NCBI RefSeq assembly: GCF_014192515.1
Contig: NZ_JACHYB010000001.1
Span: 1,116,001 to 1,180,000 of the forward strand
Direction: 5' to 3'
DNA length: 64,000 nucleotides
Origin: Microbacter margulisiae
GTDB lineage: Bacteria; Bacteroidota; Bacteroidia; Bacteroidales; Paludibacteraceae
Part shown: piece by piece, positions 10,962 through 20,580 of the stretch
Numbering within the stretch: the stretch's first letter is position 1
How the letters are laid out: each line of letters starts with the position of its first letter
The notes under the pieces: model-generated
Database searches by the model: none
What the model was told of the DNA's origin: nothing
Seen by the model: only the letters and a program-made list of their open reading frames with translations
Program-made: the position numbers and the translations under genes

Positions 10962-11417
10962 ATGGAAAAGGGAACAAACACTCCGAAAAAAGTGGATAGG
11001 AATCATCCTGCCTTTAATAAGAATGCCGAACCATTCTATAGTATTATCATGGAAGGGTTGAAAGGAGAGGTGGACGGGGAGCATTTTTGGGATGCTGTAG
11101 CAGAAGATGCAGTATTTGAATTTTTATATCATATTCCAGGATTTACCCATAAGATTGAAGGCCGTACTGCGTATATGAACTGGTTTGGAAGTTATACCAA
11201 TGTCCTTCATTCGTCCGATAACTTACGGGTATATAAATCGGCAAAACCTGAAAAGGTAATTATTTTGGAATATGAAGTTCATGGAAAGGTTCCTTCTACA
11301 GGAAAAGCCTACGATAACCGTTTTTGTTCTATCATAACGATCGAAAATCGTAAAATAGCCCATTGGCGTGATTATATGGATTCGCTCGCCGTAATGCTTT
11401 CTGTTTCTTCTGATTAA
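10962..11417 (+). CDS. SnoaL-like / NTF2-fold protein
   Basis: A 151-residue soluble protein. The pattern AFNKNAEPFYSIIMEGLKGE ... HFWDAVAEDAVFEFLYHIPG ... GRTAYMNWFGSY ... VIILEYEVHGKV ... ITIENRKIAHWRDYMDSLAV is that of the SnoaL-like ketosteroid-isomerase superfamily (cone-shaped alpha+beta barrel). The WRDYMD segment lies where SnoaL-like proteins carry a pocket residue. Members include isomerases, cyclases and many proteins with no known reaction, so the substrate is open. I start at the ATG at 10962, 72 bases inside the longest frame, because the fold begins there and the upstream codons look non-coding. It has no signal peptide and appears monocistronic. Confidence 0.75.
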   Translation: MEKGTNTPKKVDRNHPAFNKNAEPFYSIIMEGLKGEVDGEHFWDAVAEDAVFEFLYHIPGFTHKIEGRTAYMNWFGSYTNVLHSSDNLRVYKSAKPEKVIILEYEVHGKVPSTGKAYDNRFCSIITIENRKIAHWRDYMDSLAVMLSVSSD

Positions 11418-11658
11418 CACAGAGTGCTGTGTGCCATTAATCCTATCAGCATATCGCTTCTCTGAAGCTAAATGCGCATAACATTGCCTCAACTGATGAT
11501 TGACCCTGCCTGGCGTCACCGGATGAGCTTCACTATCATTGCGTTCAGTGCCAGTTCCGGCTTCTTTCAAACATACCACCACATGAAAATGTCTGGATAT
11601 TAAATTTCCAGGCAAACAGCCATTTTGTCTTTTTTGATAAATATTTAATCTCTGCCTA
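11418..11658. other. Intergenic stretch upstream of the arsR promoter
   Basis: No plausible gene in either direction. Nothing recognisable before the promoter and operator of the ArsR-family gene. Confidence 0.5.
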
Positions 11659-11703
11659 TTGCAAATTGCATTTTATTGTTCGTAATTTTGCGAACAACGA
11701 ACA
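11659..11703 (+). promoter_or_regulatory. arsR promoter with an operator palindrome over the -7 element
   Basis: TTGC at 11659-11662 and TAATTTTGC at 11683-11691 match the Bacteroidetes -33/-7 promoter with a 21-base spacer. A perfect inverted repeat TTGTTCG (11676-11682) / CGAACAA (11691-11697) brackets the -7 element exactly, and a third half-site CGAACA follows at 11698-11703. A dimeric ArsR repressor bound here would block polymerase, so autoregulation of the downstream cluster is very likely. Confidence 0.8.
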
Positions 11704-11719
11704 TTAAACTTATATCGTT

Positions 11720-12064
11720 ATGGAAGCTAATAAAAATAAAGATTATATTGTTGACAACGAAACACTTGCCCGTTTTGCTAAAGCTTTGGGTCACCCAACG
11801 CGCATCACCATTTTGCAATACCTCGCTTCATTGAACAGTTGTTATTTTGGCGATATTCATAATGAACTGCCAATAGCAAAAGCGACCGTATCCCAACATT
11901 TGAAAGAATTAAAAGATGCTGGCCTGATTCAGGGAGAGATAGAAACGCCCAAGGTGAAATACTGTATTAACCGGGAAAACTGGATAAAAGCGCAAGCCTC
12001 TTTTGAAGCTCTGTTTAACAGCAAATCAGATAAATCAACTACAACAAAACCAGGCTGTTTTTAA
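11720..12064 (+). CDS. ArsR-family winged-helix metalloregulator
   Basis: This 114-residue protein has the ArsR/SmtB fold: LARFAKALGHPTRITILQYL (helices 1-2), the recognition helix-turn-helix LPIAKATVSQHLKELKDAGL and the wing IQGEIETPKVKYCIN. Cysteines sit at about residue 42 (NSCYFGD), at 88 in YCIN, and at the C-terminus (KPGCF). In Bacteroidetes ArsR relatives of the arsenic operons, cysteines stand at the same places. The canonical ELCVCDL metal-binding box is not present, so the inducer may be arsenite, another thiophilic ion or a reactive sulfur compound. The promoter overlaps a matching palindrome. The downstream FmdE, TauE and porin genes are the likely targets. Confidence 0.92.
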   Translation: MEANKNKDYIVDNETLARFAKALGHPTRITILQYLASLNSCYFGDIHNELPIAKATVSQHLKELKDAGLIQGEIETPKVKYCINRENWIKAQASFEALFNSKSDKSTTTKPGCF

Positions 12065-12230
12065 TACATACTTTCCACTGAATAGTTCATGGCATAAGCA
12101 TAACAATGCCATATCATGCTGTTCAGGGATGCAATAAGAGAGGCATTTCTTTCCTGATAAAGATCATTCATTAAGGAAAAGCGGATTGAGAAAATAATCA
12201 TGTAATATCAATATAATTAAAATCAAAAAA

Positions 12231-12887
12231 ATGAGTACACAAAGATTTCAAATTCCGGATTGGGCATTTGAGTTTCACGGACATGAATGCCCTTTTATGC
12301 CAATTGGTTACCGTATGGGTGTTTTGGCATTAAAGACGTTAGGTGTTGAACGCTGCAAGGATCATGAGTTTCACGTATTTTCCGAAATGGGCGTTGGTCA
12401 TCCGCAGGGATGTATGCAGGATGGTATCATGGCTGCCACCGGAGCAACTTTTGGAAAGGGTATGATTGATAAATTATACTACGGTAAAGTAGCGGCTACC
12501 TTTTGGCATCCTGATGTAAAAGGTGCTTATCGTATCTTTTTGCGCAATGAGTTTCAGGATAAACTGGCTCCTCATGAATTCTTTAATTACCGCAAAATGG
12601 GTATTGAACCATCACAGATACCGGTAGAAGTCAGACGGGATATTGTAAATATAGTCTTAGATGCTACTGACGATGAGTTATTTATTGTGACAGCGATTCC
12701 AGACTTTGAATACAAACCGGTTAAAGGTTCATTTGCAAAAGCTAAATGTGAAGTTTGCGGTGAATATGTTTTTGAGCGTTATCTGCGCCTCAAAGATGGA
12801 AAACGGGTTTGCATTTCCTGTGCCGGACACGAACCCGATGAGATGACAATAGCTGTACCCAACGCACGTCTTTCACACAAGCACTAA
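12231..12887 (+). CDS. FmdE-family protein with C-terminal zinc finger (copy 1)
   Basis: A 218-residue cytoplasmic protein (no signal peptide). The N-terminal FmdE domain has the motif FHGHECPFMPIGYRMG (about residues 15-30) and the second motif GCMQDGIMAATGATFGKG (about 62-79). The C-terminus carries a four-cysteine ribbon, CEVCGEY ... CISCAGHE. FmdE proteins were first seen with formylmethanofuran dehydrogenase, but most bacterial members have no proven role and bind zinc through these motifs. In this copy the sequence before the second motif is HPQGC, whereas copy 2 has HCATC, so their metal sites may differ. The gene lies 166 bases after arsR and 12 bases before the permease gene. Confidence 0.85.
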   Translation: MSTQRFQIPDWAFEFHGHECPFMPIGYRMGVLALKTLGVERCKDHEFHVFSEMGVGHPQGCMQDGIMAATGATFGKGMIDKLYYGKVAATFWHPDVKGAYRIFLRNEFQDKLAPHEFFNYRKMGIEPSQIPVEVRRDIVNIVLDATDDELFIVTAIPDFEYKPVKGSFAKAKCEVCGEYVFERYLRLKDGKRVCISCAGHEPDEMTIAVPNARLSHKH

Positions 12888-12899
12888 ATCATAGAAGAT

Positions 12900-13673
12900 A
12901 TGGATTTTAACAGTGCTCTTTTAATGGCAGTACTCTTTTCTTTTGTACTTGCGTTCATCTTCTCGATGTTTGGACAGGGAGGAGGATCAGTTTATTCTCC
13001 ACTACTGATTCTCCTTGGTTTTTCAGTTTTAAATTCAACATCCACATCATTGGTACTGAATTTGATTACCTCCCTCTCTGCAGGATATGTGTTCTATAAG
13101 AATAAAATGATTGATATGAAAGCATCGTTTATGTTTGTGCCGGGCATTGTCCTTGGTGCTTTTGCAGGCGGTGTTTATGCCCGATATGTCAATCAGGATA
13201 TCTTATTGTGGTTGTTTGTGTTCTTCCTGTTAATCCTTGGTACCAGAATGATCCTTACTTATTGGCAGAAAGGACATGATACGGACGAGGTACCGATGCC
13301 ACATCCTTCAGTTTCGATGTACATCCTGATTGTGGTTTTTAGTATTGCCGTAGGGCTGATCTCTGGCTTACTGGGAGTAGGTGGTGGTGTGCTGATTGTT
13401 CCCTTCATGGCTTATGTTCTGAAATACCCGACAAAATCAGCTGCAGGCTCTTCTCATCTCATTATTTCATTCTCGGCTCTTGCCGGAATTCTAGGACATG
13501 CAACCAATCATCGGCTTGATTATCCATTAATTGTCATAGTAGGAATTGCCGTATTAATTGGTGGACATCTCGGGGCAAGATTCAGTCTCAGGGTAAAACC
13601 CAAAATGATTAAAGCCGGCCTTGGCCTTATTATGTGGGCGCTTGCTGCTCAGATATTAATCAAATTAATTTAG
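12900..13673 (+). CDS. TauE/SafE-family sulfite or organosulfonate exporter-like permease
   Basis: A 257-residue inner-membrane protein with about eight spans in two repeats. The family's glycine-rich motif appears in both halves: FSMFGQGGGSVYSPLLILLG near residue 20 and GLISGLLGVGGGVLIVPFMA near residue 155. TauE/SafE proteins move small sulfur-containing anions such as sulfite, sulfoacetate or thiosulfate, and some members have other substrates. The gene starts 12 bases after fmdE copy 1 and so is in the same transcript. With a porin next to it, the two could form an anion route across both membranes. Direction and substrate are not shown by the sequence. Confidence 0.88.
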   Translation: MDFNSALLMAVLFSFVLAFIFSMFGQGGGSVYSPLLILLGFSVLNSTSTSLVLNLITSLSAGYVFYKNKMIDMKASFMFVPGIVLGAFAGGVYARYVNQDILLWLFVFFLLILGTRMILTYWQKGHDTDEVPMPHPSVSMYILIVVFSIAVGLISGLLGVGGGVLIVPFMAYVLKYPTKSAAGSSHLIISFSALAGILGHATNHRLDYPLIVIVGIAVLIGGHLGARFSLRVKPKMIKAGLGLIMWALAAQILIKLI

Positions 13674-13748
13674 ACAGATAAATTACGCTTCTGGCATGCA
13701 ATCAGGAATAGATGTGTGATGAGCCGCCAGACGCTTAACAAAAAAAAT

Positions 13749-14762
13749 ATGATTTACCTGAATAAGAAGAAGTTGAAATGGATTATTTTGATGTTGGGAT
13801 TAGTATTTGCACTTCATGCCTTTGGTCAGGATGAAAAGTTTGTGAATTTGAATGGTTACCTGCAAACACGCCTTTCCAGTAATTTCGATAATTCGACTGA
13901 GTTTACCATACGACGCGCAAAACTCTGGGTTTATGGCGAAATCCCGAATCTGAGTTTTATTACCTATAAAATGCAGGCGGTGTACACTTCGTTTAAAAGT
14001 GAGTCTTTTGTTTTTCAGGATGCTTTTGCAGATATCCATACCCCTGGGTATGGTTATTTGCGGGTAGGTCGCTTTGTTCCCGATTTTATGCTGCAACGGA
14101 TGCAACCCGATTATGAAATTCCCGTCCTTGAACGTGCAGATGTGATTAGTGACATGACGATCAATGAAAAAGAAATGGGACGGGAGGTAGGCCTTCAATA
14201 TACCTTCCAACATAAATCGTTGCCGCTCCATTTTAGCTTTGGTATTTTCAATGCGAATGTCGAACAACCTGCCCACAGTAAGGACAACCTGTTGTTATAT
14301 ACTTCCCGCGTGGCATATAAAGTCATAGACAAAGGCAATTCCTGGCTTGATATCGGAGGTTCATTTGCCTATCGTCATCTTGACAAAATGACGCTTACAA
14401 CCATCTATCAACCCGACTCTGTTATCTCTGGCAATGATTTTCGTTGGGGCATCGAATCCCAGTGGCACTGGAATAATTTTGAATTGCAGGGTGAATACGT
14501 ACAGGCAAAAATCAACAAAGATAAGGCCGATGGCTGGTATGCCCTGGCAGATTATACAATTCATAAAAAGTATCAGGTTGTTGCCCTGGCACAAAAATAC
14601 AATGACCTGAATCCGATTACCAGCAACAATGCCTGGTATGGAGTAGGTTTTAATGTACAACTGTCGGGCAACACAAAACTGATGTCCGACCTGAAAACGC
14701 AAGACACTGATTCCGGCAGGAAATACCTGGGGGATCTTCAATTACAAATATTTTTTAATTAA
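13749..14762 (+). CDS. Outer-membrane porin, phosphate-selective OprO/OprP-like
   Basis: The chosen ATG at 13749 gives 337 residues with a clear signal peptide (KKKLKWIILMLGLVFALHAF, cleavage before QDEKF). The mature part starts VNLNGYLQTRLSSNF and FTIRRAKLWVYGEI, the usual opening of OprO/OprP-type beta-barrels, and ends on an aromatic strand (LQLQIFFN). An upstream ATG at 13716 adds a poor leader. Such porins pass small anions. Its position between TauE and the second FmdE gene, on one strand with short gaps, suggests it supplies or releases the same solute. It ends 14 bases before the next gene. Confidence 0.8.
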   Translation: MIYLNKKKLKWIILMLGLVFALHAFGQDEKFVNLNGYLQTRLSSNFDNSTEFTIRRAKLWVYGEIPNLSFITYKMQAVYTSFKSESFVFQDAFADIHTPGYGYLRVGRFVPDFMLQRMQPDYEIPVLERADVISDMTINEKEMGREVGLQYTFQHKSLPLHFSFGIFNANVEQPAHSKDNLLLYTSRVAYKVIDKGNSWLDIGGSFAYRHLDKMTLTTIYQPDSVISGNDFRWGIESQWHWNNFELQGEYVQAKINKDKADGWYALADYTIHKKYQVVALAQKYNDLNPITSNNAWYGVGFNVQLSGNTKLMSDLKTQDTDSGRKYLGDLQLQIFFN

Positions 14763-14776
14763 AGGAGGAATAGAAA

Positions 14777-15382
14777 ATGATTAATCCAAAAGATTGGCTC
14801 GAATTCGGGCAAAAATTTCACGGACATAAATGTCCTGCTATGCCAATGGGTTTAAGAGTTGGCGCTGCTGCCATGAATGCCCTGGGTGTAGAACGTGCTA
14901 AAGACGGACAGTTGGTTGCCTTTGTCGATTTGGGAGAAGATCATTGCGCTACCTGTTATGGTGATGGCCTTCAGGTCATCATGGGGACGACCTTTGGCAA
15001 AGGGAATATTAAAAAAACAAATAAAGGGAAATGGGCTGTCACCGTTGTTGACCGTGCCACAGGACGTGCTGTCAGGGTTACCCCTACTGCACAAGCCATG
15101 CTCAACAACAAAAAATCGAAATTCTTTACAGAATATCGTATGTTGGGCAAGCCGGCAAGCACTGTCCCTGCCGAAGTAGTCGATCCTCTCGTGGATAATG
15201 TAATGAATGCTCCTGACGAGATGTTGCTTACGGTATCTCCTATTTTTGAATACAAACTCGAACCGAAAAAAGATAGCTTCGACGGATTTGTTTGTGAAGA
15301 ATGCGGCGAGATGACCGTGATGGAATATGGGCGCATTAAAGGAGATAAAAAAGTCTGCATAGATTGCGCTGCAAAAAAGTAA
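14777..15382 (+). CDS. FmdE-family protein with C-terminal zinc finger (copy 2)
   Basis: A 201-residue cytoplasmic paralogue of the FmdE protein at 12231. It keeps FHGHKCPAMPMGLRVG near residue 13, and the second motif HCATCYGDGLQVIMGTTFGK, followed by a variable middle and a CEECGEM ... CIDCAAKK zinc ribbon. Compared with copy 1 it has an extra cysteine (HCATC instead of HPQGC). AAAGGAGGAATAG ends four bases before the ATG, an unusually strong Shine-Dalgarno for this phylum. It closes the cluster and is followed by a bidirectional terminator. Two diverged FmdE genes around one permease-porin pair suggests separate steps or a heteromeric enzyme; the reaction is unknown. Confidence 0.85.
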   Translation: MINPKDWLEFGQKFHGHKCPAMPMGLRVGAAAMNALGVERAKDGQLVAFVDLGEDHCATCYGDGLQVIMGTTFGKGNIKKTNKGKWAVTVVDRATGRAVRVTPTAQAMLNNKKSKFFTEYRMLGKPASTVPAEVVDPLVDNVMNAPDEMLLTVSPIFEYKLEPKKDSFDGFVCEECGEMTVMEYGRIKGDKKVCIDCAAKK

Positions 15383-15522
15383 ACTAAGGAATTACTTCCT
15401 TAAGGATTGAAGGAATGAGGATTGTAACTTCTCTAACTTCCGTCTTCTGTCAATTGCCAACTGTCTGTTATCAATTGAATCTGGTATTCTGTTACGCTGT
15501 TATTCTGTTATTAAAAAATGAA

Positions 15523-15577
15523 CCCCGGCTCTCAGAACGCATCAAGCATCTGAAAACCGGGGAAAGTTTATTTTTTG
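15523..15577. terminator. Bidirectional terminator between convergent genes
   Basis: CCCCGG (15523-15528) pairs with CCGGGG (15557-15562), with an inner TCAGA/TCTGA pairing. The plus strand continues with TTTATTTTTTG and the minus strand with CATTTTTTAAT, so it can serve both the FmdE cluster and the fibronectin-domain gene facing it. Confidence 0.75.
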
Positions 15578-15601
15578 TCCGTCTGATTTTGAAATTGCCG
15601 G

Positions 15602-16228
15602 TTACATAACGTAACTTAGCACGTCGCTACTCGTCGTGCGAGTCGGATCGCTCCCTATGGCTGTGACACGAATGGCATATTGCCTGCCTTGCGTCAAACT
15701 GTCCAGTTGCACGCGGCTCTGACTGACTACAGCATGTCCCCATACCGTGGTGCCGGTGTAGGGAAACTCGGTGTACTCCACATCATAGCTGCGGGCGCTT
15801 TTTACAACATTCCAACGAACATCCAGTGCTCCTCGCGTGTTCCCAGCTTCAACTGTCAATCCGGTTGGAGCTGGTAGCGGCCCTGCCGGTACAGGCTTCT
15901 TGCTTACGTCGAAACCTGAGCTGATAATGGCTGCTTCGTCGCCGTTGCTTGCCCTCTGAACATAGGTGCCCAGGGAGCGCATCGTCCCTTTCAGGATATC
16001 CTTCATGTCATTTTTATAAATCGTATCCTCACGGGTTCCATCTTTTACCTTACCCATGGCGTCGACATAATTGTCATAAGCGGTTTTCACCACTTCGAGA
16101 GTTGGATCGGGTGTCGGATAACGCGGGTTACCCGTCATGTGATCCAGTACCTGCTTCACAAATATCGGAAAACTTGCATCCGTGTATTTGCTGCTTGAAA
16201 AATCGATCAGGACTTTATATCCAATCAT
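15602..16228 (-). CDS. Fibronectin type III domain protein of unknown function
   Basis: The chosen start at 16228 gives 208 residues (MIGYKVLIDFSSSKYTD...). Residues 1-115 are helical and resemble no family I know, with a repeated PTPDPTLEVVKTAYDNYVDA-like stretch. From about residue 122 comes a proline-rich linker (KKPVPAGPLPAPTGLTV) and one fibronectin type III domain (ALDVRWNVVKSARSYDVEYT ... GRQYAIRVTAIGSDPTRTTS). No signal peptide is seen with this start; the longer frame to 16345 adds a non-hydrophobic leader. Similar proteins in Bacteroidetes are small and uncharacterised. It ends near the bidirectional terminator. Confidence 0.65.
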   Translation of the reverse strand: MIGYKVLIDFSSSKYTDASFPIFVKQVLDHMTGNPRYPTPDPTLEVVKTAYDNYVDAMGKVKDGTREDTIYKNDMKDILKGTMRSLGTYVQRASNGDEAAIISSGFDVSKKPVPAGPLPAPTGLTVEAGNTRGALDVRWNVVKSARSYDVEYTEFPYTGTTVWGHAVVSQSRVQLDSLTQGRQYAIRVTAIGSDPTRTTSSDVLSYVM

Positions 16229-16390
16229 AAAATAATAATTTAAAGAGTTTATAGTAGGACAAAAAATATTTTCTTTGCTTCTGCTGGTTCTACCATCTGC
16301 CGGAACACCACCGGATGCCAAGGAAAAATGACAGATATCATACAATCAGTTATTTAAACATATAACATAGTTATCAATCCTGTTGTTTTC

Positions 16391-16696
16391 ATGACTAAAA
16401 ATGGTCGTTTATTGATCCATCATGGCTCAAGGCTGATCCATTTTGGCTCAAGGCTGATCCATTTTGGGGAAAGACTAATCCATTTTGAGGAAAGACTGAT
16501 CCATTTTGAGGAAAGGCTAATCCATTTTAAGGAAAGGCTGATCCATTTTGAGGAAAAGCTGATCCATTTTGAGGAAAGGCTAATCCATTTTAAGGAAAGG
16601 CTGATCCATTTTGAGGAAAAGCTGATCCATAATGCAGCAAGATTGATCCAAAATGGGGCATTATTGATCCAAAATGGGGCATTATTGATCAAATAA
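16391..16696 (+). CDS. Heptapeptide-repeat ORF of unknown function
   Basis: The frame encodes 101 residues made almost wholly of the heptad RLIHFEE and variants (LIHFKER, LIHFEEK, LIQNGAL). The spacing puts L and I in register every seven residues, which could give an amphipathic helix. Similar short heptad-repeat frames occur in other Bacteroidetes and remain unexplained. Because the DNA repeat is 21 bp, any stop-free frame stays open along the whole array, and the opposite strand is open too, so coding status is unproven. There is no clear ribosome-binding site. Confidence 0.35.
   Translation: MTKNGRLLIHHGSRLIHFGSRLIHFGERLIHFEERLIHFEERLIHFKERLIHFEEKLIHFEERLIHFKERLIHFEEKLIHNAARLIQNGALLIQNGALLIK
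16412..16690. repeat. 21-bp tandem repeat array, 13 units plus a partial
   Basis: Units of 21 bp, consensus CTGATCCATTTTGAGGAAAG plus one base, run from 16412 to 16684 with a partial TTGATC at the end. The outer units have diverged, while units 5-7 and 8-10 are an identical 63-bp block, which points to recent slippage or unequal exchange. There are no spacers, so it is not a CRISPR array. Confidence 0.92.
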
Positions 16697-17414: not shown

Positions 17415-18185
17415 ATGTCGGCCCTGCAAATCCTTCATCATTCTATTTTCAGTTCACACCTGTGCCATGTAAGCCCTGCCGATTATAAAACCATTTTGAT
17501 CCAGTATGCACAATTCCTGAAAGGGACAAGGCTTTCGATGCTGATGATTGCTATTTTTGACCTGCACAAAGGCAACTACCTCTATCTTGACCATCGCATC
17601 CAGAAACTTTTGGGTGAACCGAACCGGAATAGCAATGATTTTAAGCCACATGACACACTCTATGACCATGTACATCCGGACGACCTGCAGGACTTGCATA
17701 AAGCGGATATCTGCTGCTACCAACAGTTTCACAGTTTGCCTGCCCGTGAGCGCGACCATTATGGCATGGGGTGCCATTTCCGCATCCGGACAGCTTCGGG
17801 CAGTTATTTGCGGATGATACGGAAGGTAAGGCCACTGGAATATGATACCTATAGAAATGTGTGGTTACTGTCGGTTACTTTCGACCTGATGTCCGAAGCA
17901 GCCAGCGGAAGCATTCCGGCTGCCTGGATATTCAATATAAAAACCCATGAAGCAGAGCCGCTTACCGGAATGGGAAATGGGTTATGGGAACCCATCACCC
18001 CGGGATGCCTCAAGCTGTTGCAGCTTATCCGCCAGGGATTTTCCTCACATGAGATAACCGAGCATCTGCATATCAGCAAGAAGACGTTGTATAACCAACG
18101 CAGCAGGATTTTGCAGGGCTGCGGTGCAAAAAATATGACGCAAGCCATTCGTTACCATGAAATCATGGGTACGTTTCAACAATAA
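17415..18185 (+). CDS. PAS-domain LuxR-type transcriptional regulator
   Basis: A 256-residue cytoplasmic protein. Residues about 45-160 form a PAS-like sensor (FDLHKGNYLYLDHRIQKLLG, LYDHVHPDDLQDLH, GCHFRIRTASGSYLRMIRKV). Residues about 190-250 are a LuxR/GerE helix-turn-helix (KLLQLIRQGFSSHEITEHLH, ISKKTLYNQRSRILQG). This layout is widespread in Bacteroidetes as a single-component regulator. No ligand-binding residue stands out, though the sensor part is rich in His and Cys (DICCYQQFH). The same promoter region precedes the NimA-like gene at 21242, so that gene is a likely target and the regulator may control itself. Confidence 0.85.
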   Translation: MSALQILHHSIFSSHLCHVSPADYKTILIQYAQFLKGTRLSMLMIAIFDLHKGNYLYLDHRIQKLLGEPNRNSNDFKPHDTLYDHVHPDDLQDLHKADICCYQQFHSLPARERDHYGMGCHFRIRTASGSYLRMIRKVRPLEYDTYRNVWLLSVTFDLMSEAASGSIPAAWIFNIKTHEAEPLTGMGNGLWEPITPGCLKLLQLIRQGFSSHEITEHLHISKKTLYNQRSRILQGCGAKNMTQAIRYHEIMGTFQQ

Positions 18186-18220
18186 ATTTTATTACAAGAC
18201 AATAATACAATGGCAGGACT

Positions 18221-18250
18221 GTAGGGACGATGTGCACATCGTCTTCCTAC
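18221..18250. repeat. REP-like palindrome (copy 1)
   Basis: The 18-bp perfect palindrome GACGATGTGCACATCGTC lies between near-complementary arms GTAGG and CCTAC. It lies just after the LuxR-type gene and upstream of the Y1 transposase, the usual place of a REP recognised by a REP-associated transposase. Confidence 0.75.
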
Positions 18251-18306
18251 AAAACAAAACAAAACAGAATAGAATAGAATCACAAACAAATAAAATATCA
18301 ACCGTT

Positions 18307-18879
18307 GTGTCAACCGACAAATTTCAAAATAAATACCGCATTCTGTCAGCACGCGCATCATGGCACGATTATAACGGTGGTGATTATTTTATAACGGTTT
18401 GTACGAAAAACAGGGAACATTATTTTGGTGAAATAAGGAATGATGAAATGATATTGTCGGAAATCGGGAAATATGCGGTCGAAAACCTGAAACAAATCAA
18501 TGGGCATTATCCCAATTGCGAGATACCATTGTTTGTGGTAATGCCCAACCATATCCATGCCATTGTGGTGATTGATTTTGTAGAGACAATGTGCACATCG
18601 TCTCTACAATCAACGCCATCTGCCAATGAACGATGGAAAAATATATTGGTAGATGAAAAAATGCAATCTATTTCAGCCAGACGTGGAAAATTATCAACAG
18701 CCATGGGCGGTTTTAAACGGGCGATTACCCGGTTTTCAAATGAAAATGACATTGATTTTGGTTGGCAATCCCGGTTTCACGATCATATTATCCGTAATCA
18801 GGACGAAATGAACCGCATTGCAACCTATATAGAAAATAATGTATTGATGTGGAAAGAAGATAAAATTTATACGGAATGA
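18307..18879 (+). CDS. REP-associated Y1 (HUH) transposase, RAYT type
   Basis: From a GTG at 18307 the protein has 190 residues: KFQNKYRILSARASWHDYN, YFITVCTKNREHYFGEI, the HUH motif VVMPNHIHAIVVID, GGFKRAITRFSNE, WQSRFHDHIIRNQDEMNRIA and the catalytic tyrosine in TYIENN. These are the marks of single-domain RAYT proteins related to IS200/IS605, which nick and move REP hairpins as single-stranded DNA. The frame is open back to 18157, but the upstream part runs through the first REP and overlaps the previous gene, so I prefer the internal start. A second REP lies within the coding sequence at 18580-18607 and adds the residues VETMCTSSLQS after the HUH motif. Confidence 0.85.
   Translation: MSTDKFQNKYRILSARASWHDYNGGDYFITVCTKNREHYFGEIRNDEMILSEIGKYAVENLKQINGHYPNCEIPLFVVMPNHIHAIVVIDFVETMCTSSLQSTPSANERWKNILVDEKMQSISARRGKLSTAMGGFKRAITRFSNENDIDFGWQSRFHDHIIRNQDEMNRIATYIENNVLMWKEDKIYTE
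18580..18607. repeat. REP-like palindrome (copy 2) inside the transposase gene
   Basis: A 28-bp palindrome with one mismatch, arms GTAGAGAC/GTCTCTAC around ATGTGCACAT. It shares its core with the copy at 18221 and lies in frame within the Y1 transposase gene, just after the HUH motif, where it does not introduce a stop. Confidence 0.8.
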
Positions 18880-19042: not shown

Positions 19043-19752
19043 CTACAACGTAACCCCTGCCACAAAAAAAGCTTTTTCAGCTTGTGGATTCGCTCCTAAG
19101 ATGCCATAAACAGGCACGGAAAAAGTATTTGAAAGTTTAATTTTCCGGGTGACTTTTATCCCGACATTAATCACGGAAAATCCCTTATTGCCGTAAATAG
19201 CAGGACTGTCAAACAAGGATGCACCAAGGAAGGTATTTACATTCGATGCAACGGGATAATCAAGTTCAACATAGGTAGAATAGGCATTTTTCCCGTTTAG
19301 ATTCTTATCTGCACCATAAAACATGGTATTCCAGGAAAAGCTCACCGGAAAGGTTTTACACCCTCCATATGCTAAAGTGCCCTCTAAGATATGTCCTGTG
19401 CCATTACTCCGAAGGTTAAAATAGTTGGCATACCCCGAACTTACTTCTGCATTATTGTTGCTGTTGTTCCAGTTGTCGTCGGTAAGCGTAAGGGAAAAAG
19501 CATGGGGTAAAGCGAGTGTCGCATTGAGGTCTATTTCTTTGACATCTCCCGAAAAAGCATATGATCCGGATGCACCTAAGCTAAAAGATCCTATCGTATA
19601 GGTTAAAGTAGGCTGGATATTGGGCGTACCGCCTTTTGATCCTTCCTGTGCTATGCCACGCCAAACGTAAGAACTCACAAGATCAACGCTCAGGTTGAAA
19701 TTGTCTTTTTTATCCTGGGCGGATACACACGTTGATGTTGTAATTGAAGTCA
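19043..19752 (-). pseudogene. TorF-like outer-membrane porin, mature part cut off from its signal peptide
   Basis: The frame encodes about 235 residues of a beta-barrel: NFNLSVDLVSSYVWRGIAQE, then LTYTIGSFSLGASGSYAFSG and a C-terminal AFFVAGVTL. The SSYVWRG opening is typical of TorF-family putative porins. It begins at the edge of the IS5-family element at 19753, and the residues before SAQDKKDNF lack a full signal peptide. That peptide (MKFKQRSAALLFIISVLTMN) lies at 20665-20727, beyond the element. The porin is therefore interrupted and, without its leader, should not reach the outer membrane. Confidence 0.85.
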
Positions 19753-20580
19753 TCTTGACTTTTTCTGTTTAGTAATTTTCTTAAGTAGTATCACGATAAA
19801 AGCGATAAGGTTAAAGCTTTGCCAACTGGAGCAAGTAACATCAAATCTGTTCAATAGAGATCTGAAACTATCCATCCATGCATTGGTTCTTTCTATGCAA
19901 TAGCGTTGCTGATAGAGCAATTCATCGAAGAATATATCATCCGTATGTGCTGCGTTACGCCAGTTAATAGCGATGTTGGGTATTATTTCATGGGAAGAAC
20001 AGAATTCTCTGAACTCCGCAGAGTCAAAACCTGCATCGGCATTAAGAAAAAGACCATCAACTCTTATATCGGAGTTATTCAGCGAATCAATAATGTCGGT
20101 AAAACGTTCTTTAATTTGATGTAAATCATTGTGATTCCCTTCTATCGGGTCTGATATGGCCAATGGGATACCTTGTCTGTCTGTAAGATAAAGAGCATTG
20201 GTAGTCTTCCTTTTCTTCCGACCCTGATAAGCAACCTGTTCTCCTCCACGTAATGCGGGGGTATGGCTGCCATCCAAATCAACACTGGACATGTCCAATG
20301 AGGCTCTGTATTTATTCAATAAACCAAACCAGATTTGTTGTAACACTCCTGATTTACACCATGTACGAAAATAACCGAAAACAGTCTTATAATGCAATAC
20401 GACATTAGAAAATAAACTTTTAACGGGCAACATATGCCATTGACAACCTGTTTTTAATTTGTACAATATGCAGTTAACAATCTCGGCGATATCACACTTT
20501 GTCCTGAACCCTCTCTTGGGTACAGGGATGAATGGCACTATTTCTTTATTTATTGTATCTTTGTCGAGTACTAAGTACAT
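19750..20580 (-). CDS. IS5-family transposase
   Basis: A 276-residue transposase with an N-terminal DUF4096-like region (GFRTKCDIAEIVNCILYKLK, TGCQWHMLP) and a DDE domain: D in SSVDLDGSHT (about residue 102), D in LNADAGFDSAEFREF (about 178), and E in QRYCIERTNAWMDSFR (about 229). It looks full length and undamaged, so the element may still move. The coding frame runs to the very end of the element and its TGA stop is completed by the host sequence just outside. It lies inside the porin gene in the same direction. Confidence 0.93.
   Translation of the reverse strand: MYLVLDKDTINKEIVPFIPVPKRGFRTKCDIAEIVNCILYKLKTGCQWHMLPVKSLFSNVVLHYKTVFGYFRTWCKSGVLQQIWFGLLNKYRASLDMSSVDLDGSHTPALRGGEQVAYQGRKKRKTTNALYLTDRQGIPLAISDPIEGNHNDLHQIKERFTDIIDSLNNSDIRVDGLFLNADAGFDSAEFREFCSSHEIIPNIAINWRNAAHTDDIFFDELLYQQRYCIERTNAWMDSFRSLLNRFDVTCSSWQSFNLIAFIVILLKKITKQKKSR

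Follow-up and report, generated by a model that had tools for sequence, protein, structure and literature searches.

We found that an operon of Microbacter margulisiae (Bacteroidota) is organized around two genes that recur together in many phyla, one for an FmdE-family protein and one for a TauE/SafE-family transporter. The operon begins at position 11659 of the window, which is the whole 64,000-nucleotide stretch of DNA analyzed here (contig NZ_JACHYB010000001.1, positions 1,116,001 to 1,180,000), and its five genes encode an ArsR-type repressor, a first FmdE (FmdE1), the transporter, an OprO/OprP-type porin and a second FmdE (FmdE2). The locus is probably a patchily distributed metal(loid)-resistance operon with FmdE and a dedicated TauE-family exporter as its core, in which FmdE would capture or convert a metal(loid) and TauE and the porin would expel the product. 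The patchy distribution of FmdE genes was apparent from their presence in 2 of 5 genomes of the same genus, 4 of 101 of the family and 9 of 296 of the phylum. The features of the operon, in window positions, are as follows.

11659..11705, + strand: promoter/operator, with TTG at 11659 and TAATTTTG at 11683-11690 within the 22-base-pair (bp) inverted repeat 11676-11697
11697-11705, + strand: further half-site ACGAACATT, 3' of the 22-bp inverted repeat
11720..12064, + strand: ArsR/SmtB-type repressor, 114 amino acids, assigned by HTH_5, NF033788 and tree; Cys41, Cys82 and Cys113
12231..12887, + strand: FmdE1, 218 amino acids; core zinc site H16, H18, C20 and C61 (HPQGC), C-terminal zinc finger C173, C176, C194 and C197
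12900..13673, + strand: putative TauE/SafE (TSUP) exporter, 257 amino acids, assigned by Pfam profile; no cysteines, subfamily marks N54 and H200
13749..14762, + strand: OprO/OprP-type outer-membrane porin, 337 amino acids, assigned by Pfam profile; no cysteines
14777..15382, + strand: FmdE2, 201 amino acids; core site H15, H17, C19 and C60, extra Cys57 (HCATC), zinc finger C173, C176, C194 and C197
~15513..15576, both strands: bidirectional intrinsic terminator, shared with a convergent open reading frame (ORF) at 15602-16345

FmdE1 and its TauE partner

Named genomes gave 143 FmdE1 loci, and gene neighborhoods were compared in the 80 of them most similar to FmdE1. These loci came mostly from metagenome bins, were mutually related and in many cases had short flanks. 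Genes were called with a simple ORF picker and grouped into BLAST communities, with cluster names taken from one or a few scanned representatives. Chance rates were derived from the 22 genomes of 22 of the 80 loci, using all 102 TauE rows and 28 ArsP genes (31 rows, less one that missed the cut-off and two surplus fragments). A TauE gene was located within 3 kilobases (kb) of FmdE1 in 64 of the 80 loci, whereas chance predicts about 0.7% per locus, and the linkage is therefore no local accident. In 56 loci, TauE was on the same strand at a distance of no more than 300 bp (45 downstream and 11 upstream of FmdE1), with median gaps of 27 bases for downstream and 24 for upstream genes. Such close pairs were observed in Bacteroidota, Ignavibacteriota, Chloroflexota, Pseudomonadota, Bacillota and Thermodesulfobacteriota, among other phyla, and in archaea.

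The linkage belongs to one part of the FmdE family and not to PF02663 as such, because strong and distant FmdE matches differed in both phyla in which they were contrasted. When 301 Chloroflexota genomes were searched with an FmdE1 profile (56 match rows), and one best match was taken for each of 30 of 46 genomes, TauE was found within 1.5 kb of 6 of 6 strong matches (at least 121.7 bits; the next score was 63.3) and of 0 of 24 weak, distant FmdE (Fisher p 1.7e-6). One of the six strong loci, in genome G407, was both the center of this sample and one of the 80 loci above. In Bacteroidota, TauE was beside 6 of 7 FmdE1/FmdE2-type loci (4 of 5 without the window's own two) and 0 of 8 distant ones; a pooled Fisher test counts in the overlapping loci, i.e., G407 and the window's own two. 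A more distant kind of FmdE that also adjoins TauE was seen in three Chloroflexota loci (L115, L116 and L117), and in L115 and L117 this protein reads FHGHxCWASVAG...HGGMC. At another locus (L113, genome G647), an in-frame TGA was flagged within the matched FmdE or close to it.

The row FmdE1-TauE-porin-FmdE2 was found in 11 of 83 other loci (the 80 plus L096-L098, with L096 on the same contig as L017). TetR was upstream of this row in 10 of the 11 loci, nine times directly and once across an intervening NifX-like gene, and an ArsR-cluster gene was upstream in none. An earlier note on this DNA had proposed the five genes as one system and asked how often their order recurs: FmdE and TauE proved to recur as a unit, in many cases accompanied by a porin of the anion type and with FmdE present as two paralogs, and the four-gene part of the order came back, whereas the exact ArsR-led order of five genes was not met again among the 83 loci. 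The OprP-like porin and the second FmdE are additions to the core in Bacteroidota and relatives.

The window TauE matched the TauE/SafE profile PF01925 at 158.6 bits (cut-off 32.6) and has the conserved GxGGG motifs; a sequence search of solved structures gave no matches. In a tree of 61 FmdE-linked and 38 background TauEs, only 3 label changes were needed compared with 30.5 after shuffling; 3 of 41 fetched background rows had been dropped as copies of linked ones and several of those kept were long-branched. The window protein fell in a clade of 10 linked rows (support 99/97) that spans Bacteroidota, Chloroflexota and Methanomassiliicoccus. Two residues marked the linked proteins: N54 was present in 60 of 61 linked and 2 of 30 background TauEs, and H200 in 56 of 61 and 3 of 30, with eight background rows left out of this comparison. 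Also, 42 of the 61 linked proteins had no cysteine. Exceptions in the tree were L035, which grouped with a background row, and L064, which stood alone; the choice of linked TauEs by sequence clusters may have passed over dissimilar ones. As judged from tree and residues, the linked TauEs are a dedicated subfamily with its own clades. The partner position is taken by TauEs of two dissimilar kinds: one is the window type, at 49-87% identity, and the other comprises types at about 22-36%. L051 and L054 each have a fragment of the window type, 85 residues long, immediately 5' of a complete TauE of the second kind, as if one kind had replaced the other. The only other TauE match in the genome is on the same contig at 1181018-1181764, about 1 kb past the window end; it has a very long tree branch and is not of the FmdE-linked type.

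The porin scored 60.7 bits on Porin_O_P PF07396 (cut-off 20.9), which places it in the OprO/OprP family, and its matches to the solved OprO/OprP structures 4rjx, 4rjw and 2o4v were partial and weak. By eye, its N-terminal hydrophobic stretch resembles a signal peptide.

Operon structure and the FmdE pair

All five genes are on the + strand and all their families scored above Pfam cut-offs. ArsR and FmdE1 are separated by 166 bases, and the following gaps are 12, 75 and 14 bases if the porin starts at the ATG at 13749. The palindrome TTGTTCGTAA-TT-TTGCGAACAA at 11676-11697, whose arms are 90% complementary, covers the TAATTTTG element, and a TTG is found 21 bases upstream of that element; together they fit the Bacteroidota -7/-33 promoter. 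The operator pattern TTCGNAANNTTNCGAA has a single site in the whole 3.56 Mb genome, and its reversed control has none. The terminator has an A-run before and a T-run after the stem and a folding energy of -23.9 kcal/mol (z -3.88); a simple terminator scan, which allowed only loops of 3-8, missed it. The single strand, the gaps, the palindrome at the ArsR promoter and the bidirectional terminator had all been read from the letters in the earlier note, and each was borne out. Scans for sigma-70 promoters and terminators gave numbers close to those of shuffled sequence (9 vs 10.9 and 5 vs 3.5, respectively), and an Rfam search of 11000-16000 gave no matches. The genes are presumably co-transcribed and inducible. 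Downstream, 16391-16696 holds a short ORF of tandem LIHFEERLIHFGERL-like repeats whose opposite strand is open too, and translations read by eye indicated REP-type (18157-18879) and IS-type (19750-20580) transposase-like ORFs.

Both FmdE proteins belong to PF02663, with 95.2 bits for FmdE1 and 97.3 bits for FmdE2 (cut-off 22.9) and the H-x-H-x-C...C metal site in each, and both carry a TraR/DksA-type four-cysteine zinc finger. Ta1109 (2gvi) is a clear homolog of FmdE1 (E 1.1e-55), and the core ligands of both proteins were assigned by alignment with it, using the ligands given in PMC2954224. According to the available passages of that paper, the metal ligand in Ta1109 is the last cysteine, Cys61, the site holds Zn, and an unidentified ligand lies 1.8 Å from Cys61. 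The same passages report that FmdE cores bind Zn or Ni, and that most PF02663 genes adjoin metal-ion transporters, and that fmd genes adjoin 13 of 208. FmdE fusions in archaea are mentioned in the accessible part of PMC11237513.

It had been suggested that the motifs HPQGC and HCATC differ at a metal-ligand position. This was wrong: the ligand is the final cysteine, which is kept in both proteins, and therefore the difference within the pair is not a lost ligand. Homolog motifs together with the published ligands ruled out a changed ligand. HCATC was kept in all of the best 120 of 2521 matches to FmdE2; among the best 120 of 1117 matches to FmdE1, 113 had HPQGC and the other seven HPQTC or HPQAC. 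By sequence, the zinc site is complete in both proteins and FmdE2 has an added CxxC, since its extra Cys57 stands three residues before the ligand Cys60 and creates CATC beside the metal site. No subunits of formylmethanofuran dehydrogenase (fmd/fwd) were present among the scanned neighbors in the window, nor among the annotated clusters of the 80 loci.

Metal(loid) resistance neighbors and the regulator

The FmdE1 loci were accompanied by genes for metal(loid) resistance. ArsP was found in 32 of the 80 loci, against 0.38 expected, Trx3/ArsE-F in 30, ACR3 in 24 and LMWPc/ArsC-like genes in 19. At least one arsenic-type gene (Trx3, ArsP, ACR3, LMWPc or methyltransferase) was present in 44 loci, and at least one ArsR gene in 33. 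CDF-type transporters were found in 23, RND transporters in 14 and P-type ATPases in 7 loci. Within uninterrupted FmdE1 runs, ArsP or ArsE-type genes occurred in 21 and CDF/RND/HlyD/P-ATPase genes in 19 loci. For example, a single run in L071 reads ArsR-ArsP-ArsE-TauE-FmdE1-ArsC-like-ACR3, with ACR3 in two pieces. The ACR3 proteins of L025 and L072 passed the cut-off, and the ACR3 of L048 and the piece in L071 did not reach it; the genes termed ArsC here are LMWPc-like, and the three that were scanned were all under the NCBIfam ArsC cut-offs. In one methyltransferase cluster (cluster 30), one protein is a clear ArsM (342 bits vs 263) and another is not. Distant-FmdE loci were also near ars-type genes in 3 of 32 cases (L010, L011 and L135). 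Side observations in this set were multihaem cytochromes near FmdE1/TauE (L016:6153-8615 and L087:6330-9095), an alginate-export-type porin also beside FmdE1, and an ArsP-type permease fused to a CDF transporter (L094:1-1386).

Similar company was seen on plasmids, of which six were examined among 28 records with an FmdE match. On the Citrobacter amalonaticus Y19 plasmid, FmdE faces CDF and TauE, and this set sits between a permease-thioredoxin-rhodanese set and arsD-arsA-arsC-ACR3. The context on Sulfuricella pSCD agrees with resistance company, and Halorubrum p163 carries FmdE-TauE-CDF-ZIP. FmdE-TauE pairs on Citrobacter freundii and Klebsiella plasmids had an ArsR-type gene near and no listed ars transport genes nearby; a Deinococcus plasmid had a distant FmdE without TauE. 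One FmdE match at 40.5% identity was listed on 20 plasmids, two of which were examined. With ArsP linkage above chance and these plasmid contexts, the FmdE-TauE pair qualifies as a component of metal(loid)-resistance islands, and a role in metal(loid) resistance is likely.

The window ArsR is an ArsR/SmtB metalloregulator by profile (HTH_5 48.6 bits, cut-off 22; NF033788 62.7 bits, cut-off 55) and by the operator-like palindrome at its own promoter. It scored far below the cut-offs of the named sensor models BigR (27.6 vs 155 bits), TsoR (32.1 vs 115) and CmtR (39.9 vs 150). In the tree, it was sister (78% identity, support 91/86) to the L020 ArsR, which heads a Trx3-Trx3-CcdA run, and it grouped with ArsRs of ArsE/F-CcdA-ArsP and FmdE runs; this position ruled out a classical ACR3-type ArsR (branch 99/96). 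The L021 ArsR, which leads FmdE1-TauE, fell with the ACR3/ArsC-side ArsRs on a long branch. Two other ArsRs of the same genome were compared. The second, 59% identical, leads a paralogous operon of ArsE-like thioredoxin, ArsP, CDF and OsmC (L108:7550-10746, same contig, ~2158.0-2161.2 kb), with a repeat TTTCGTTATTTTACGAAA upstream whose layout, by eye, is like that of the window operator. The third, 46% identical, adjoins an SBF/ACR3-family gene at 169684-170280 of contig 2. The strict operator pattern was upstream of 1 of 45 ArsR genes scanned (L037); L023, an ArsR-led relative with the order ArsR-FmdE1-TauE-porin, has a similar palindrome, ATTCATCGTAA-TT-TTGCGATGAAT. Anywhere within the FmdE1 run, ArsR was present in 18 and TetR in 23 of the 80 loci. 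A fixed partnership with ArsR was ruled out, as TetR is commoner directly upstream of FmdE1 and heads most four-gene cores. The earlier proposal of a regulated anion route was thus supported as to the FmdE-TauE unit and its metal(loid) resistance company, but not as to ArsR as a fixed member.

Proposed function and known systems

In the mechanism that we propose, a thiophilic metal(loid), with trivalent arsenic, antimony or an organoarsenical favored, would bind the ArsR cysteines, and ArsR would then release the operator covering the promoter. FmdE1 and FmdE2, as predicted cytosolic zinc-thiolate dimers, would act at the H-x-H-x-C...C site, either by capturing the metal(loid) or by turning it into an anion that bears sulfur, and FmdE2 may use its extra CxxC pair in this step. 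TauE would then move the anion over the inner membrane and the porin would let it out through the outer membrane. The exported product is probably an anion, because the carrier TauE mostly lacks cysteine. An arsenic species or a thio-anion appears the favored substrate, and the FmdE chemistry and the transport direction given here are those that we infer. A more specific version, which we offer as speculation with a modest chance, is that thiolated metalloid anions (thioarsenate and thioantimonate, for example) leave by an efflux route formed of FmdE and its dedicated TauE: FmdE1 and FmdE2 might assemble or load them on a zinc site with the added CxxC, TauE export them and the OprP-like porin vent them. 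If true, metalloids would have an exit across the whole envelope where conditions are sulfidic and anoxic, and its FmdE-TauE core would be common to bacteria and archaea.

Several observations weigh against a metal(loid)-resistance operon of this kind. TauE was not within 3 kb of FmdE1 in 16 of the 80 loci, some of them with short flanks, and 20 loci had neither an arsenic-type gene nor a CDF/RND/HlyD/P-ATPase gene. ACR3, ArsC-like or cluster-30 methyltransferase genes were in only 9 of the 80 FmdE1 runs, and the L025 methyltransferase is not clearly ArsM. The window operon itself is not a canonical ars operon, since an ArsB/ACR3 permease and an ArsC reductase are absent from 11659-15576, and its ArsR stands outside those heading ACR3/ArsC runs. 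The gene directly upstream of FmdE1 was ArsR in 5 and TetR in 14 loci. Also, expression of an Acidiplasma FmdE gene, not necessarily linked to TauE, dropped by a factor of more than 14 on sulfur, on pyrite and on arsenopyrite (PMC12524180, part available). Against arsenic as the only substrate, CDF/RND/HlyD/P-ATPase genes were as common (42 of 80) as arsenic-type genes (44 of 80), and TetR variants occur; the Acidiplasma result counts against it as well.

These points bear on four other explanations. The pair may instead handle divalent thiophilic or borderline metals (Zn, Cd, Cu), in which case FmdE would serve as a buffer or metallochaperone and TauE would transport a metal complex or a counter-ion. 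The CDF-type, RND and P-type ATPase counts given above, the Halorubrum arrangement, the CDF gene in the paralogous operon led by the second ArsR, and ArsP neighbors that match the SO_0444 Cu/Zn family (below its cut-off) all agree with this, as do the Zn or Ni sites of FmdE cores (PMC2954224, in the passages available). However, lack of cysteine in 42 of 61 linked TauEs is odd for a soft-metal path, ACR3 and ArsC-like LMWPc genes are frequent too, and the single RND protein scanned had its top scores on models for multidrug rather than heavy-metal transporters, none of them reaching its cut-off; we consider divalent metals a real but less than even prospect. A response to sulfur stress, in which ArsR or TetR would sense persulfide or sulfite, FmdE handle sulfane sulfur on cysteine and TauE export sulfite or thiosulfate, is unlikely. 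It draws on the TauE family name, on rhodanese, thioredoxin, CcdA and OsmC neighbors, on an L048 protein weakly similar to flavocytochrome-c sulfide dehydrogenase, on an FAD-dependent oxidoreductase and Dps on enterobacterial plasmids, and on the shift of Acidiplasma FmdE expression on sulfur (PMC12524180, same part), but the window ArsR scored poorly on BigR, and arsenic and metal transporters dominate the neighbors.

Hitch-hiking of an unrelated gene pair on resistance islands could explain part of the gene company: islands hold many unrelated resistance genes, transposases flank the plasmid copies, and transposase-like ORFs, read by eye, are downstream in the window. As an account of the whole it is quite improbable, because several phyla have the pair embedded in runs that include ars-type genes, and because the partner TauEs have clades of their own. 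Finally, FmdE could be an accessory of Mo/W formylmethanofuran dehydrogenase or another molybdoenzyme, with TauE incidental or a supplier of cofactor sulfur. The family name, the 13 of 208 PF02663 genes that adjoin fmd genes (PMC2954224), the molybdate-regulated fmdECB of Methanothermobacter (PMC3087415, in the part available), NifX-like (dinitrogenase Fe-Mo cofactor family) genes within 3 kb in 6 of the 80 loci and a distant Deinococcus FmdE near a molybdopterin oxidoreductase speak for it. We rejected this role because no fmd/fwd or molybdoenzyme genes were among the annotated clusters of FmdE1 runs, unclustered neighbors being annotated only in part; the TauE linkage is also specific to one FmdE subgroup. 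It is left with a very slim chance, and not a lower one, because of the NifX-like neighbors. The refuting condition set in the earlier note, an FmdE pair linked elsewhere to molybdenum enzymes with no TauE partner, was not borne out among these annotated clusters.

Metal(loid) resistance with FmdE and TauE as its core would have consequences beyond this genome. FmdE is a family without an agreed function, named from methanogenesis though most members are outside methanogenesis operons, and its function is now testable within metal(loid) detoxification. One FmdE subgroup has its own exporter and sits in resistance islands across many phyla, in archaea and on enterobacterial plasmids. This offers the family a specific role that can be tested, and would put an unrecognized module into surveys of metal(loid) resistance.

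A description of an FmdE-TauE system was not found in open-access literature, subscription papers being outside the search, and neither was anything on FmdE and TauE together or on TauE and thioarsenate. In the parts available, PMC3087415 deals with methanogen fmd regulation and has ArsR in a reference only, tauE turns up as a solitary plasmid gene and as a table entry in PMC8386393 and PMC6016940, without FmdE, the arsenic resistance gene review PMC6205960 does not mention FmdE or TauE, and PMC10831059, on FmdE and arsenic, does not describe the system. No description was found of the TauE partner and its subfamily, of paired FmdEs or of their setting in arsenic islands. The metal link of FmdE as such is not new, because PMC2954224, in its available passages, already places most PF02663 genes beside metal-ion transporters.

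Compared with known systems, the two FmdEs are of the same family as the solved Ta1109 (2gvi), DSY1837 (2glz) and SYN_00638 (3d00) and have the same zinc ligands, but the string 'arsen' is absent from the text of PMC2954224, and TauE and paired HPQGC/HCATC paralogs are not named in its available passages. The transporter shares the Pfam family and GxGGG motifs with TauE/SafE (TSUP) sulfite/sulfonate exporters, whereas the linked TauEs are in their own clades with N54/H200, which are rare among the 30 other TauEs. The porin is above the PF07396 cut-off like phosphate-selective OprO/OprP, but its similarity to the solved proteins is partial and weak. Classical arsRC-ACR3 operons are likewise under ArsR control, and ACR3/ArsC-like genes are in the same run as FmdE1 in L025, L027 and L071; the window operon differs in having no arsenite permease or arsenate reductase, and the genome's own ACR3-type gene sits on another contig beside another ArsR. 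The nearest likeness is to the ArsR-ArsP and ArsE-ArsF-CcdA arsenic operons, ArsP being a methylarsenite permease (PMC6205960, part available): the ArsR closest to that of the window stands at the head of a run of this type, and FmdE1-TauE is inside several (L016, L021, L062 and L070-L072). Unlike these, the window operon has no ArsP, ArsE or ArsF, and its effectors are FmdE and TauE.

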